Positions 31,724 to 37,607 of a DNA stretch of 64,000 bases are shown here, piece by piece. Every line of letters starts with the position of its first letter. Position 1 is the stretch's first letter. Both the position numbers and the translations under genes were made by a program. Under the pieces are notes generated by a model. It was given only the letters and a program-made list of their open reading frames with translations. It had not been told where the DNA came from and searched no databases. This stretch comes from Limnochorda sp. LNt (GTDB lineage: Bacteria > Bacillota > Limnochordia > Limnochordales > Geochordaceae): the NCBI RefSeq assembly GCF_035593265.1, contig NZ_CP141614.1, positions 868,001 to 932,000 of the forward strand, in the 5' to 3' direction.

Positions 31724-32737
31724 TCAGTAGAGGTGGCACGCCACCCGGTGGGCGGGGGCCACCTCGGTGAGGGACGGCTCCACCTCCGCGCAGATCGGCC
31801 TGGCATGGGGACACCGGGTGCGAAACGGGCAGCCCGAGGGCGGGTCGATGGGCGAGGGGATCTCCCCCTCCATGGGGATGCGCTGGCGACCCCGCTCCCG
31901 TCGGGGATCGGGGATGGGTACCGCCGACAGCAAACCCTGCGTGTAAGGGTGCAGCGGCTGCCGATAGACCTCGGCGGTCGGGCCCGTCTCCACCAGCCGC
32001 CCCAGGTACATCACGCCGACACGGTCGCTGATGTGGCGCACCATGGACAGGTCGTGCGCGATGAAGAGGTAGGTGAGCCGGCGCTGTCGCTGCAGGCGCG
32101 CCAGCAGGTTGACGACCTGGGCCTGGATGGAGACATCCAGCGCCGAGATGGGCTCGTCGGCGACGACGAACTCGGGGTCCACCGCCAGGGCCCGGGCGAT
32201 GCCGATGCGCTGGCGCTGGCCGCCGCTGAACTCGTGGGGGTAGCGCCCGGCGTGTTCGGCGGAGAGGCCCACCACCGACAGGAGTTGGGCGATGCGCTCC
32301 TGGCGCTCCTTGCGGGTGCGGGTGAGCCGGTGGGTGTCGAGGGCCTCGCCGATGATCTCGCCCACCGTCATGCGCGGGTTGAGCGAGGCGTACGGATCCT
32401 GGAAGATGATCTGGGCCCTCCGCTTGAAGGCGTACAGGGCCGACCCCGACAGCGCATGGACGTCGGCACCGTCAAAGCGCACCGTGCCGCCGGTCGGGCG
32501 ATACAGCCCGATGACCGTGCGGCCCACCGTCGTCTTGCCCGAGCCGCTCTCTCCCACCAGGGCGAAGATCTCCCCCCGGGCGATGGAGAAGGTGACCTTC
32601 TCCACGGCTCTCACGCGAAGGCCTCGACGGATGACGAAGTGCTTCTGAAGATCGTGCACCTCGACGAGCGGCCGCTGGGCCGACTCCGCGGCGCTCCGGG
32701 CCAGCGAGCCGCTCGGGTGGACCTGTGGCATGGCCAT
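31724..32737 (-). CDS. oppF: Oligopeptide ABC transporter ATP-binding protein (OppF type)
   Basis: A 337-residue ATPase powering peptide import on the inner face of the membrane. Walker A is [16 protein letters not shown], the Q-loop is [16 protein letters not shown], the signature is [17 protein letters not shown], Walker B is [14 protein letters not shown], and the H-loop is [10 protein letters not shown]. The C-terminal oligopeptide-specific domain contains the cysteine cluster [15 protein letters not shown], which in Opp/Dpp ATPases can hold an iron-sulfur cluster. The start overlaps the oppD stop by one base. Last gene of oppA-oppB-oppC-oppD-oppF. Confidence 0.93.
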
Positions 32738-33795
32738 CACCGGATCGCCTCCCGGGAAGCGGCATGGTGGCTCGCCGCCGTGTCGTGCCCGTTGGCCTCG
32801 AGGAACCGCCGTCCCCACTGGCCTGCGCGTAGATCCAGCAGCCAGCACCGGCTGACGTGGTGGGCTCCCACCTCCACCTCGGGCGGGGCGAAGCGAGCGC
32901 AGACCTCCATGGCGAAGGCGCAACGGGGTGCGAAGGCGCAGCCCTCCGGCTCCCGGTAGAGGTCCGGGGGCGAGCCGGGGATGGCCTCCAGGTCCCGGCG
33001 CCCCTCGGCCTGGGGGTTGGGGATGGCCCGTAGCAGGGCGCGGCTGTAGGGATGGCGCGTCACGTGGAAGAGGTCGTCCACCGGCGCCTGCTCCACCACT
33101 TGTCCGGCGTACATGACGACGACCCGGTCGGCCAGCCGCGCCACGATGCCCAGGTCATGGGTGATGAGCAAGATGGCCATGCCGAGCCGGCTCTGCAGCG
33201 ACGCCATCAGATCCAGGATCTGGGCCTGGATGGTGACGTCCAGGGAGGTGGTGGGCTCGTCGGCGATGAGCAGCTTGGGCTCGCAGGCCAGCGCCATGGC
33301 GATCATGACCCGCTGACGCATGCCCCCGCTGAACTCGTGGGGATACTGCCCGAGCCGGGTGCGTGGGTTGGGGATGCCCACCAGCGCGAGCATCTCGGCC
33401 GCCCGGTCCATGGCCTCCTTGCGGGAGAGGCCCCGGTGCTTCTCCACCATCTCGGCGATCTGGCGACCCACGGTCATGGTGGGGTTGAGCGAGCTCATCG
33501 GGTCCTGGAAGATCATGCCGATCTCAGCCCCTCGGACCCGCCGCATCTCGGGGTCGCTCGAGGCCGTCAGGTCCCGCCCGTCGAAGCGGATCCGCCCCCC
33601 GTCGATGCGGCCCGGTCGGGGCACCAGTCGCATGACGGCGAGGGCCGTCACGCCCTTGCCCGAGCCCGACTCGCCCACCAGAGCCACCGTCTCGCCCGGC
33701 TGCACGGCGAAGGAGGAGCCCCGGACCGCGTGCACCACCCCGGCGTGGGTGTAGAAGTTGACCTCGAGTCCGATGATCTCCAGCAACGGTTGCAC
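32737..33795 (-). CDS. oppD: Oligopeptide ABC transporter ATP-binding protein (OppD type)
   Basis: A 352-residue ATPase partner of OppF. Walker [19 protein letters not shown]-loop [16 protein letters not shown], signature [17 protein letters not shown], Walker [15 protein letters not shown] and H-loop [10 protein letters not shown] are intact. The cysteine motif [15 protein letters not shown] lies near the C-terminus, although one spacing differs from OppF. Best start is GTG 33795; AGGAGG lies 14 bases away, longer than usual, and no better codon exists before the oppC stop. Confidence 0.92.
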
Positions 33796-33815
33796 CTTGG
33801 CCGATGACGCCTCCT

Positions 33816-34757
33816 CTAGCGACGCTCCCGGGGATCGAGGGCATCCCGCAGCCCGTCGCCCAGGAAGTTGAAGCCCAGCAAGATCAGGCTCAGGACCGCG
33901 GCCGGGAAGAAGAGCTCGTGGGGATAGACCCTCAACACCTGGTACGACGAGTAGATCATGGAGCCCAGGCTCGCCAGCGGGTCCTGCACGCCCAGCCCGA
34001 TGAAGGAGAGGAACGCCTCGCCGAAGATGGCCCCCGGCACCGTCAGCGTGATGTTGACCAGGATGACGCCCATGGTGTTGGGGATGACGTGGCGCCAGAC
34101 GATCTGCAGCGGGCGCACCCCCAGGGCACGGGCGGCCAGCACGTACTCCTGCTCCTTGATCTGCAGCACCTGGCCCCGCACCAGCCGTGCCATGCCGACC
34201 CAGCCCACCGAGCCCATGGCGATGACGATGGACCACAGCCCCGGTCCCACCACCACCACCAGCAGGATGACGATGAGCAGGTAGGGGATGCCGTAGAGGA
34301 CGTCGACCACCCGCATCATGACGTCGTCGACGACCCCGCCGAAGTAGCCAGCGATGCCGCCCCAGGCCACCCCGATGACCAGGTCGATGGAGGCCGCCAG
34401 GATGCCGATCGCAAGCGAGATGCGGGCGCCGTACCACAGCCGGGTGAAGATGTCCCGCCCCAGCTCGTCGGTGCCGAACCAGTGCTCGGCCGACGGCGGC
34501 AGATCGGTGTCGAGCAGGCTGGTCTGCCGGTAATCGTACGGGGTCAGGTGGGGGCCGACGATGGCCATGATGCCCACCAGCAGCAGGACGATGAGGCCTA
34601 CGACCGCCATGCGGTTCTGCCGGAAGCGAGCCCAGGCGTCAGCCCAGTACCCCACGGCGGGCCGGGTGATGGCCTCGGCGGCCTGGTGCACGCCGGGGGC
34701 GGGGCGGAAGAGCTCGGCTGCGGGGGCCTCCCTCGAAGCGGAAGGGTACGTCGCCAT
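33816..34757 (-). CDS. oppC: Oligopeptide ABC transporter permease (OppC type)
   Basis: A 313-residue inner-membrane permease. Residues 1-45 are cytoplasmic, then the OppC N-terminal domain (RFRQNRMAVVGLIVLLLVGIMAIVG), the periplasmic-side motif HWFGTDELGRDIFTRLWYGARISL, five further membrane segments, and the EAA loop EYVLAARALGVRPLQIVWRHVIPN that contacts the ATPases. It starts one base after oppB stops. It forms the channel with OppB. Confidence 0.94.
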   Translation of the reverse strand: MATYPSASREAPAAELFRPAPGVHQAAEAITRPAVGYWADAWARFRQNRMAVVGLIVLLLVGIMAIVGPHLTPYDYRQTSLLDTDLPPSAEHWFGTDELGRDIFTRLWYGARISLAIGILAASIDLVIGVAWGGIAGYFGGVVDDVMMRVVDVLYGIPYLLIVILLVVVVGPGLWSIVIAMGSVGWVGMARLVRGQVLQIKEQEYVLAARALGVRPLQIVWRHVIPNTMGVILVNITLTVPGAIFGEAFLSFIGLGVQDPLASLGSMIYSSYQVLRVYPHELFFPAAVLSLILLGFNFLGDGLRDALDPRERR

Positions 34758-34758
34758 C

Positions 34759-35685
34759 TCAATCCGCGGCCTTTCCGAGACGGATGCGTGGGTCGACCAG
34801 GGTGTAGGCCAGGTCGACCAGCAGATTGAGCCCGACCAGCAGCACCGAGTAGAAGACGGTGGTGCCCATGATGAGCGGGTAGTCGCGGTTGTATACGCTC
34901 TGGACGTAGTACTTGCCGAGCCCCGGGATGCCGAACATGGTCTCCACCACGAAGGTGCCGGTGACGATGCCCGCCGTCAGCGGCCCCATGATGGTCACGA
35001 TGGGCAGGATGGCGTTGCGCAGGGTGTGGCGACGCAGCACCTCACCCGACGACAGGCCCTTGGAGCGGGCGGTGCGGATGTAGTCCTGCCCCAGCACCTC
35101 CAGCACGCTGGTGCGCATGAGCCGGGTCTGCCCCGCCAGCATGCTGACGGCCAGCGTCAGCGTGGGCAACAGCGTGTGGATGGGCGTCTCCCACCGCGCC
35201 ACCGGCAGCCAGCCCAGCTTGACGCCGAAGACGTACTGGGCGATGGAGCCCACCACGAAGTTGGGCACCGAGATGAAGACGAGAGCCAGGAAGACCGCCG
35301 CGTAGTCGGGCCAGCGATTGTGGTGAAGCGCCGCCACCGTCCCCAGGGCCAGCCCGGCCGTCAGCCCCACGGCCAGCGCCTGCAGCCCCAGGTGTGCGGA
35401 GACCGGGAACCCCTCGCGGATCATGTCGGTGACGGTGCGGTTCATCTGGCGCATGGAGTAGCCCAGGTCGCCCCGCACCAGGTTGCCCAGGTAGGTGAGG
35501 TATTGCTGCCACAGGGGGCGATCCATGTTGTACTTCTTCAGCATCAGCTGGTGGATCTGCGGCGTCAGCTTCTCGCTGGAGAAGGGATCGCCGGGCACCA
35601 GGTGCATCAGCACGAAGGTCAGGGTGGCGATGAACCAGAGCGTCACCACCGCGTAGACCAGGCGTCTCGTCACGTAGCGAAGCAA
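34759..35685 (-). CDS. oppB: Oligopeptide ABC transporter permease (OppB type)
   Basis: A 308-residue permease with six membrane segments. N-terminal MLRYVTRRLVYAVVTLWFIATLTFVLMHLVPGDPF is typical of OppB/DppB, and the EAA loop DYIRTARSKGLSSGEVLRRHTLRNA is clear. The start is TTG with GGAGG nine bases upstream. A strong hairpin separates it from the upstream binding-protein gene. Confidence 0.94.
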   Translation of the reverse strand: MLRYVTRRLVYAVVTLWFIATLTFVLMHLVPGDPFSSEKLTPQIHQLMLKKYNMDRPLWQQYLTYLGNLVRGDLGYSMRQMNRTVTDMIREGFPVSAHLGLQALAVGLTAGLALGTVAALHHNRWPDYAAVFLALVFISVPNFVVGSIAQYVFGVKLGWLPVARWETPIHTLLPTLTLAVSMLAGQTRLMRTSVLEVLGQDYIRTARSKGLSSGEVLRRHTLRNAILPIVTIMGPLTAGIVTGTFVVETMFGIPGLGKYYVQSVYNRDYPLIMGTTVFYSVLLVGLNLLVDLAYTLVDPRIRLGKAAD

Positions 35686-35801: not shown

Positions 35802-36953
35802 TCAGCGGGCGACGGCTGGCACCTCGTAGCCCAGCTCCTGCAGGCCCTCCCGCAGCAGCTGGCGTGCCAGCTGGACGTTGGGCCGCAAGGGGAAGAGCTG
35901 CCCGACGCGCCCCTGGAAGGCCCCGCCCTTGGCCGCATCCGTGATGACCGGCGGCGTCAGGGACGTGGCCGGGTAGGAGCCGTTGCGCAGCACCCGATCC
36001 GCGAACGCCTGGCGGTCGATGGCCAGGGCGATGGCCCGGCGCACCTTGGCGCTCTTGAGGACGGGGTGCTCGACGTTGAACTCCCAGTAGAAGGCCGAGC
36101 CGTCAGGCCAGGGCTCCTGCAGATCGGGGTGGTTGCGGTAGACGTCGACGAAGCGGGAGGAGACGCCGGCGATGTCCAACGAGCCCTGCTCGTAGAGCTG
36201 CAGGGTCGTGCCCACGTCCTGGATCATGTCGAAGTGGATGCGCTGCAGCTTGACGCTGGCGGCATCCCAGTAGCGCGGGTTCTTCTCCAGCACCAGCTCG
36301 TAGCCGTGGGTCCACGAGGCGATGCGGAACGGCCCGGAGGCGCCCATCTTGTCCGCGTCGGCTGCGTACCGCTCGCCGTAGCGCTCCACCAGGTGTCGCG
36401 GCGCCGGCAGGAAGCTGATGAACGTGGTCAGCTCCAGGAAGAGCGGGTTGGGCTCCTCCAGCGTCACCTGCAGCGTGCGCTCGTCGAGGGCCTTGACTCC
36501 GAAGGTCTCCAGCGCCGCGTCGATGTCCTCCTCCGGATCCATCCGGGCGATGGCGCTGCCGTTTTGGATGCCGGCCAGCTCCATCATGAACTGGTACTGG
36601 GATGCGGTGCGGGGATCGATGACCCGCCGCCACTGGTAGACGAAGTCCTCCGCCGTGATGGGCGTACCGTCGTCCCACGTGGCCTGCCGCAGCTTGAAGG
36701 TGTAGACCCGCCCGTCGGGTGAGACGGTCCAGCTCTCCGCCAGCCCGCTGCCCGGCTTGATGGAGCCGTCCGGGCCCTTACGGGCGAGCCCCTCCAGGGT
36801 GGCGTTGAGGATCAGGAAGGAGACCGTGTCGGTCGACGTGGCCGGATCGAGGTCGGGCGGCTCCTCGCCCAGGTTGAGGTTGAGGTACATGGGCGAGTCG
36901 CCACCGGGCCGGCCCTCGGTGTAGGCCCACTTGTACTCCGCATCGGCGCCCAC
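35802..36953 (-). CDS. oppA: Oligopeptide-binding protein, N-terminal lobe (downstream half of rearranged oppA)
   Basis: SBP_bac_5 family segment of about 383 residues. It contains what is normally the start of mature OppA: LGEEPPDLDPATSTDTVSFLILNATLEGLARKGPDG-type sequence, then WDDGTPITAEDFVYQWRR and a long run to LLREGLQELGYEVPAVAR, where it stops. The usual C-terminal lobe is absent. There is no signal peptide. In the same frame upstream, from 37004 to 36954, the sequence still encodes protein-like residues (LYKPWVKGVVRR), which normally end OppA. GTG 36953 is the first possible start but has no ribosome site. Best read as the second part of a permuted gene broken by TGA 37005-37007. Confidence 0.75.
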   Translation of the reverse strand: MGADAEYKWAYTEGRPGGDSPMYLNLNLGEEPPDLDPATSTDTVSFLILNATLEGLARKGPDGSIKPGSGLAESWTVSPDGRVYTFKLRQATWDDGTPITAEDFVYQWRRVIDPRTASQYQFMMELAGIQNGSAIARMDPEEDIDAALETFGVKALDERTLQVTLEEPNPLFLELTTFISFLPAPRHLVERYGERYAADADKMGASGPFRIASWTHGYELVLEKNPRYWDAASVKLQRIHFDMIQDVGTTLQLYEQGSLDIAGVSSRFVDVYRNHPDLQEPWPDGSAFYWEFNVEHPVLKSAKVRRAIALAIDRQAFADRVLRNGSYPATSLTPPVITDAAKGGAFQGRVGQLFPLRPNVQLARQLLREGLQELGYEVPAVAR

Positions 36954-37004
36954 GGCTCGGCGGACGACGCCCTTGACCCAGGGCTTGTAGAGCGAAAGGC
37001 GGGA

Positions 37005-37475
37005 TCACCAGTAGATGGGGGCGATGGGCGCCTCCTCGGCCAGGATGCGCTCCGCCTCCACGAAGTACTGCATGCGGCGCTCCTGGTCGGTGGTGCTCTT
37101 GGCGAGCTCGATGAGCTCGTCGTAGCGGGCGTTGCTCCAGCCCGGGTCGTTGAAGGCACCGCCGGTGACCCACAGATCCAGGAAGGTCAGGGGATCGTCG
37201 TAGTCCGGCCCCCAACCCGCGAAGGCGATGGCGAAGCTCTTATTGCGCATGCGCTCCAGGCGGGTCTTGAAGTCCATGTACTCCACCTGGATCTCGATCC
37301 CGAGGTTGGTGCGGATCATCTCCTGGAGGGCCTGGTTCATGGTGCGGACCGTGTCCGAGGTGTCGCTGATCATGACCAGGGGCGGCAGGGGCTTGGGCGC
37401 TGCGGCGAGGGCCGCGCCGGCGGCCAGGACCATGACGGCCACGGCCGCGCCCATCACGGCTAGCAACCGTCGCAA
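37005..37475 (-). CDS. oppA: Oligopeptide-binding protein, signal peptide plus C-terminal lobe (upstream half of rearranged oppA)
   Basis: A 156-residue product from TTG 37475 (AGGAG site nine bases upstream). Residues 1-26 are a signal peptide (MRRLLAVMGAAVAV..., AALAAA). It is followed directly by what is normally the last third of OppA: PLPPLVMISDTSDTVRTMNQ, FAIAFAGWGPDYDDPLTFLDLW, DPGWSNARYDELI and AEEAPIAPIYW, then TGA. In relatives the sequence continues as Y-x-x-x-LYKPWVKGV, which is encoded here in frame right after the stop. On its own this half cannot form a complete binding cleft. Confidence 0.75.
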   Translation of the reverse strand: MRRLLAVMGAAVAVMVLAAGAALAAAPKPLPPLVMISDTSDTVRTMNQALQEMIRTNLGIEIQVEYMDFKTRLERMRNKSFAIAFAGWGPDYDDPLTFLDLWVTGGAFNDPGWSNARYDELIELAKSTTDQERRMQYFVEAERILAEEAPIAPIYW

Positions 37476-37607
37476 CGGGCTCCACTCCTCTCAGATGGTG
37501 CGTCGTCCGGGTTGCGTCGACTGCGACGTCGCCTCGGAGCCGGCGCGGCGACCGCCGGGGCGAGGCCGGATAGAGGGGGTGCGTCCGGCCGCTGTCACCT
37601 CCTGGCC

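Follow-up and report, generated by a model that had tools for sequence, protein, structure and literature searches.

A probable natural circular permutant of an importer-linked OppA-type binding protein, conserved across several bacterial families

Organization of the oppA locus

The window, which is the whole 64 kb stretch of DNA analyzed here, carries an OppA-type gene followed by the genes of an oligopeptide importer, all on the reverse strand (Table 1). Translated from its TTG start at 37475, the frame (37475→35802) reads LRRLLAVMGAAVAVMVLAAGAALAAAPKPLPPLVMISDTSD...APIAPIYW, TGA (37007-37005), SRLSLYKPWVKGVVRRAVGADAEYKWAYTEGRPGGDSPMYLNLNLGEEPPDLDPATST...LQELGYEVPAVAR, with the stop codon at 35802, and thus encodes a signal peptide, a C-terminal OppA part, the TGA, the OppA tail, a short linker (GRPGGDSP), and an N-terminal OppA part. 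The stretch before the TGA matched positions 269-366 of the Pfam SBP_bac_5 profile (E 1.6e-12) and the stretch after it positions 3-276 (E 1.4e-69), so the profile order is reversed. The set of PF00496 segments is complete in the window protein, in two stretches above the curated cut-off, and its canonical N-to-C order is reversed at one cut, as in every protein of this form (hereafter type 1). Family models render the permuted proteins simply as SBP_bac_5 with two stretches.

Table 1. Positions of the OppA-type gene, its parts, and the downstream importer genes in the window
Feature	Position	Strand	Evidence
Type-1 oppA in circularly permuted order, with a TTG start and interrupted by a single in-frame TGA	35802..37475	-	Pfam, relatives, alignment
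Shine-Dalgarno-like stretch GAGAGGAGTGGAG 5′ of the TTG start	37480..37492	-	Scan and by eye
Signal peptide, no lipobox cysteine, end approximate	37401..37475	-	By eye
C-terminal OppA part, now first (KPLPPLVM...APIYW), with conserved GWGPDYDDP motif	37008..37394	-	
In-frame TGA; L009, L038, and L011 have CGA (Arg)	37005..37007	-	
Remainder of normal OppA C-terminus (SRLSLYKPWVKG...KWAYTEG)	36912..37004	-	
Junction linker RPGGDSP, old C-terminus to old N-terminus	36891..36911	-	RPGGD in all type-1 relatives
N-terminal OppA part, now last, terminal residues LQELGYEVPAVAR	35805..36890	-	Pfam, structures, alignment
oppB permease, same operon	34759..35685	-	
oppC permease	33816..34757	-	
oppD ATPase, start approximate	32737..33840	-	
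oppF ATPase, start approximate	31724..32923	-	

The permuted lobe order with an in-frame TGA, as described in the first-pass annotation, was therefore confirmed by the frame translation and by the Pfam order, and two further comparisons agreed. Alignment to solved OppA/DppE structures, which that annotation had proposed as a check, gave the same split, the N half reaching to about DppE residue 368 and residue 364 marking the start of the C half, and the proposed position of the cut at a loop was supported. Aligned to the nearest normal-order protein, the window pieces corresponded to residues 376-535 and then directly to 2-379. Chance cannot explain this reversed order of OppA pieces.

Conservation of the permuted order in other genomes

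The swapped order was found in single uninterrupted ORFs of ten other genomes, giving 11 genomes from four families in total. Two relatives showed about 81% identity, namely L009 (G002, one contig of 3.31 Mb) and L010/L038 of the Limnochordaceae MAG Bu05 (G003), while L011, from another family of the order (G011), showed 58%; all have the same order and no stop. With a 120-residue junction profile, seven more genomes (L047-L053) came to light, from two additional families that lie outside the class; in each, the gene is likewise a single ORF and carries the RPGGD linker. Across the 11 genomes the type-1 junction showed about 50-85% identity and a conserved linker. G001, the one genome of the same genus, gave no junction match. 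The stop-free relatives that the first-pass annotation had suggested looking for are thus present, and the permuted form is an old and conserved lineage, which had been missed there.

Since the same order occurs in stop-free ORFs of ten other genomes, the alternatives that could have overturned this reading, namely a misassembly or a collapsed repeat hiding one or more normal-order oppA genes in the true genome, were refuted as exceedingly improbable: relatives do carry tandem oppA genes (L076) able to mislead assembly, but the junction is common to four families with its linker conserved, and no second close oppA copy that could have collapsed was found in the window's genome, where the remaining oppA-type proteins are only distant relatives.

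Genes for oppB, oppC, oppD, and oppF lie downstream of the type-1 gene in all 11 genomes, the contig of L067 ending within oppD. We consider the window gene to encode a natural circular permutant of a conserved, importer-linked OppA-type (SBP_bac_5, cluster C) binding protein, with a probability of roughly 0.9 judged from sequence comparison; this value covers the permuted, conserved, importer-linked protein and no particular reading of the TGA.

The in-frame stop codon

The three nearest genomes (L009, L038, and L011) have CGA (Arg) opposite the window TGA, which indicates a single C→T change; in eight genes of the window, CGA makes up 6.6% of Arg codons. The TGG-to-TGA change supposed in the first-pass annotation was therefore not borne out, the ancestral codon being CGA, and no positive evidence emerged for the read-through that it offered as the other explanation. 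Among the type-1 genes only that of this genome shows the stop, a recent event distinct from the permutation, and the TGA would be a later single C-to-T substitution at a CGA codon of an already established permuted gene.

Both sides of the TGA look alike in composition and constraint. Between the window and Bu05, dN/dS was about 0.25 before the TGA and about 0.22 after it, and GC3 was 0.96 and 0.95, respectively. Changes on the window lineage were not in excess around the TGA (6 vs 10; 17 vs 15), and oppB-oppD were alike; the oppF row with G011 in this comparison, which was out of frame, was left out. A test for pseudogene decay on both flanks gave no signal. As purifying selection persists on both flanks, the TGA is either very recent or an error. 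In a codon-usage scan of the window, only the TGA at 37007 had a strong same-frame coding signal on both sides. A weak second candidate, an in-frame TAG in coding-like sequence at window 302 on the + strand, scored far below it.

A sequencing or assembly error in an intact gene has close to an even chance of being the explanation. It would account for a single C-to-T difference in a sequence that otherwise looks selected, and for the lack of any comparable stop elsewhere in the window. The Geochorda subterranea type-strain genome is a Nanopore assembly polished with Illumina reads (PMC11456536), which would favor an error if that strain is the source, but substitutions are usually right after Illumina polishing. 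A genuine, very recent nonsense mutation, leaving a first-stage pseudogene, is a serious though tentative reading. The TGA is one transition away from the conserved CGA, and the TTG start is preceded by a good Shine-Dalgarno sequence, while the ORF after the TGA has none before its first start codon and no signal peptide; 14 other SBP_bac_5 proteins of the genome could compensate in part. Neither a second lesion nor a rate increase accompanies the TGA, however.

Functional recoding, in which an amino acid is inserted at the TGA or the gene yields a pair of chains that assemble, is less likely than either error or nonsense mutation, and we regard it as improbable. Frame and selection are preserved on both sides of the TGA, but the stop is absent from all type-1 relatives, and a second chain would have to be made and exported from the ORF that has neither Shine-Dalgarno sequence nor signal peptide. 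Selenocysteine was ruled out, since the genome has no tRNA-Sec: both Rfam hits over the cut-off were tRNA-Ser according to ARAGORN.

Origin of the type-1 order

In the nearest normal-order proteins (L054), KWAYTEGRGQ forms the C-terminus and GGPDSPNYLKLNLG opens the sequence that follows the lipoprotein linker, and the permuted junction KWAYTEGRPGGDSPMYLNLNLG looks like a fusion of such C- and N-terminal ends. In a neighboring normal-order group, L076 (G318:C6) has two tandem oppA genes directly 5′ of oppBCDF, the arrangement from which a permutation by duplication would be expected to start, and hence a candidate precursor. In such a scheme, a normal-order oppA would first have been duplicated in tandem; the end of copy 1 would then have been fused to the start of copy 2 through a short RPGGD-type linker, joining the old N- and C-termini, both of which lie in the same domain; and finally the outer ends would have been lost, so that the new ends came to lie in the loop that follows the helix ending ELGY. 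The tandem duplication followed by deletion that the first-pass annotation had put forward is thus plausible, given the oppA-oppA-oppBCDF arrangement and a linker resembling fused normal ends.

In trees, the type-1 permuted proteins were nested inside a normal-order OppA clade, and a single origin of type 1 was not rejected (p-AU 0.34). It falls short of proof, since three normal-order proteins of family f24 (L054, L056, and L057) are placed among the permuted proteins; their position could reflect a reversal, a second origin, or a tree error.

Two further permuted types

Tracing a weak junction match (L043) led to a second permuted clade (type 2: L043/L077, L078-L091, L112-L128), in which the cut falls just after an NPxYW motif. 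Of the 73 genomes examined in the class, 18 carry it, as do 26, in about ten families, of the 399 drawn from across the phylum, and the copy in G009 (L043/L077, G009:C31) has oppBCDF-type genes downstream. By scanning PF00496 across the window's own genome, we found a third type (L005/L130/L132; G000:C1:2228129-2229580), which has the C-part (288-363) before the N-part (1-278) in one frame and two permease genes behind it. Two of the 15 family-5 binding proteins of this genome are thus permuted. The whole type-3 junction occurs in 24 of the 399 phylum genomes at an identity of at least 54%, and compared with normal-order relatives type 3 showed about 55% identity in the N half and 41-52% in the C half. 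One type-3 gene of another genome (L139, G299:C44:5678-6190) has a single in-frame stop (TAG).

Types 1 and 3 are cut in the same loop and type 2 elsewhere. In a joint tree each type was tight and lay among different normal-order proteins, implying at least three independent permutations in the SBP_bac_5 family as judged from these placements. The AU test rejected types 1 and 3 as one clade (p-AU 2e-67), a constraint that cost 552 log-likelihood units. Possible rather than probable, in our view, is that family-5 (cluster C) proteins would form a hot spot for permutation, with at least three events in Bacillota, two of them in the same loop and each fixed, spread over several families, and retained next to importer genes; permutation may have been selected for moving the exported or anchored end to another domain, and the f24 group may then be a reversal.

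Function and significance

Type-1 proteins have both an export signal, recognized by eye, and linked OppBCDF genes. Oligopeptide binding of the usual kind, by a protein of changed topology, is favored by the conserved operon, the signal peptide, the purifying selection, and the conserved GWGPDYDDP segment; in Salmonella OppA, the GWxxDYxxP segment carries the peptide-amine-binding Asp419. The permuted protein would keep the normal two-lobed fold and peptide binding, and would supply peptides to the adjacent OppBCDF importer. By the domain limits of Salmonella OppA, the third domain would contain the cut and the first domain the joined termini. A model predicted for the Bu05 protein from a two-sequence alignment with the window protein reached a pLDDT of 40, too low to be usable. 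A lipobox was found in 0 of 11 type-1 and 0 of 15 type-2 proteins, while most normal-order relatives of type 1 have one; several type-3 proteins retain it, which rules out lipobox loss as a trait common to all permuted types.

Natural circular permutation of binding proteins has rarely been documented, and in the searchable literature none was found for peptide-binding (cluster C) proteins. One family would here combine at least three natural permutations with close normal-order controls (about 55% identical for type 3) and tandem duplicates as candidate intermediates, so that the origin of permutation, the reuse of a loop, and the sensitivity of an importer to the location of termini become testable. 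The relatives come from apparently thermophilic bacteria, which suits structure work, and the proteins could serve as natural templates for permuted binding-protein biosensors. A caution also follows for annotation by profiles, which masks a permutation as two matches to one family.

Comparison with known systems

With Bacillus subtilis OppA/DppE and Salmonella OppA (PF00496; PDB 8are, 8ay0, 1b05), the window protein shares all sequence elements of OppA and its place in an opp operon. In contrast to them, it has the C-part first, the old termini fused, new ends in the loop behind the ELGY helix, and no lipobox cysteine. Types 2 and 3 (L043/L077; L005/L132) resemble type 1 in having the C-part before the N-part, a signal peptide, and opp-type permease genes downstream, but belong to other branches of the family, and only type 3 shares the type-1 loop.

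In the searchable literature, which most subscription papers lie outside, no natural permutation was found for OppA, DppA, or cluster C. The domain dislocation of OpuA was considered as a precedent and set aside, the OpuAC paper being silent on permutation. The only natural precedent found there is TpMglB-2 (Tp0684) of Treponema pallidum, a naturally circularly permuted binding protein of an ABC importer that still binds its ligand and was placed in a 'cluster Bc'; permuted proteins of this kind occur in Gram-positive bacteria too (PMC4990184). The window protein gave only PF00496 (cluster C) matches and does not belong to 'cluster Bc', TpMglB-2 being a cluster B sugar binder outside PF00496 with another cut. 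Like TpMglB-2, however, type 1 is naturally permuted, with its old termini joined and its order conserved in relatives.
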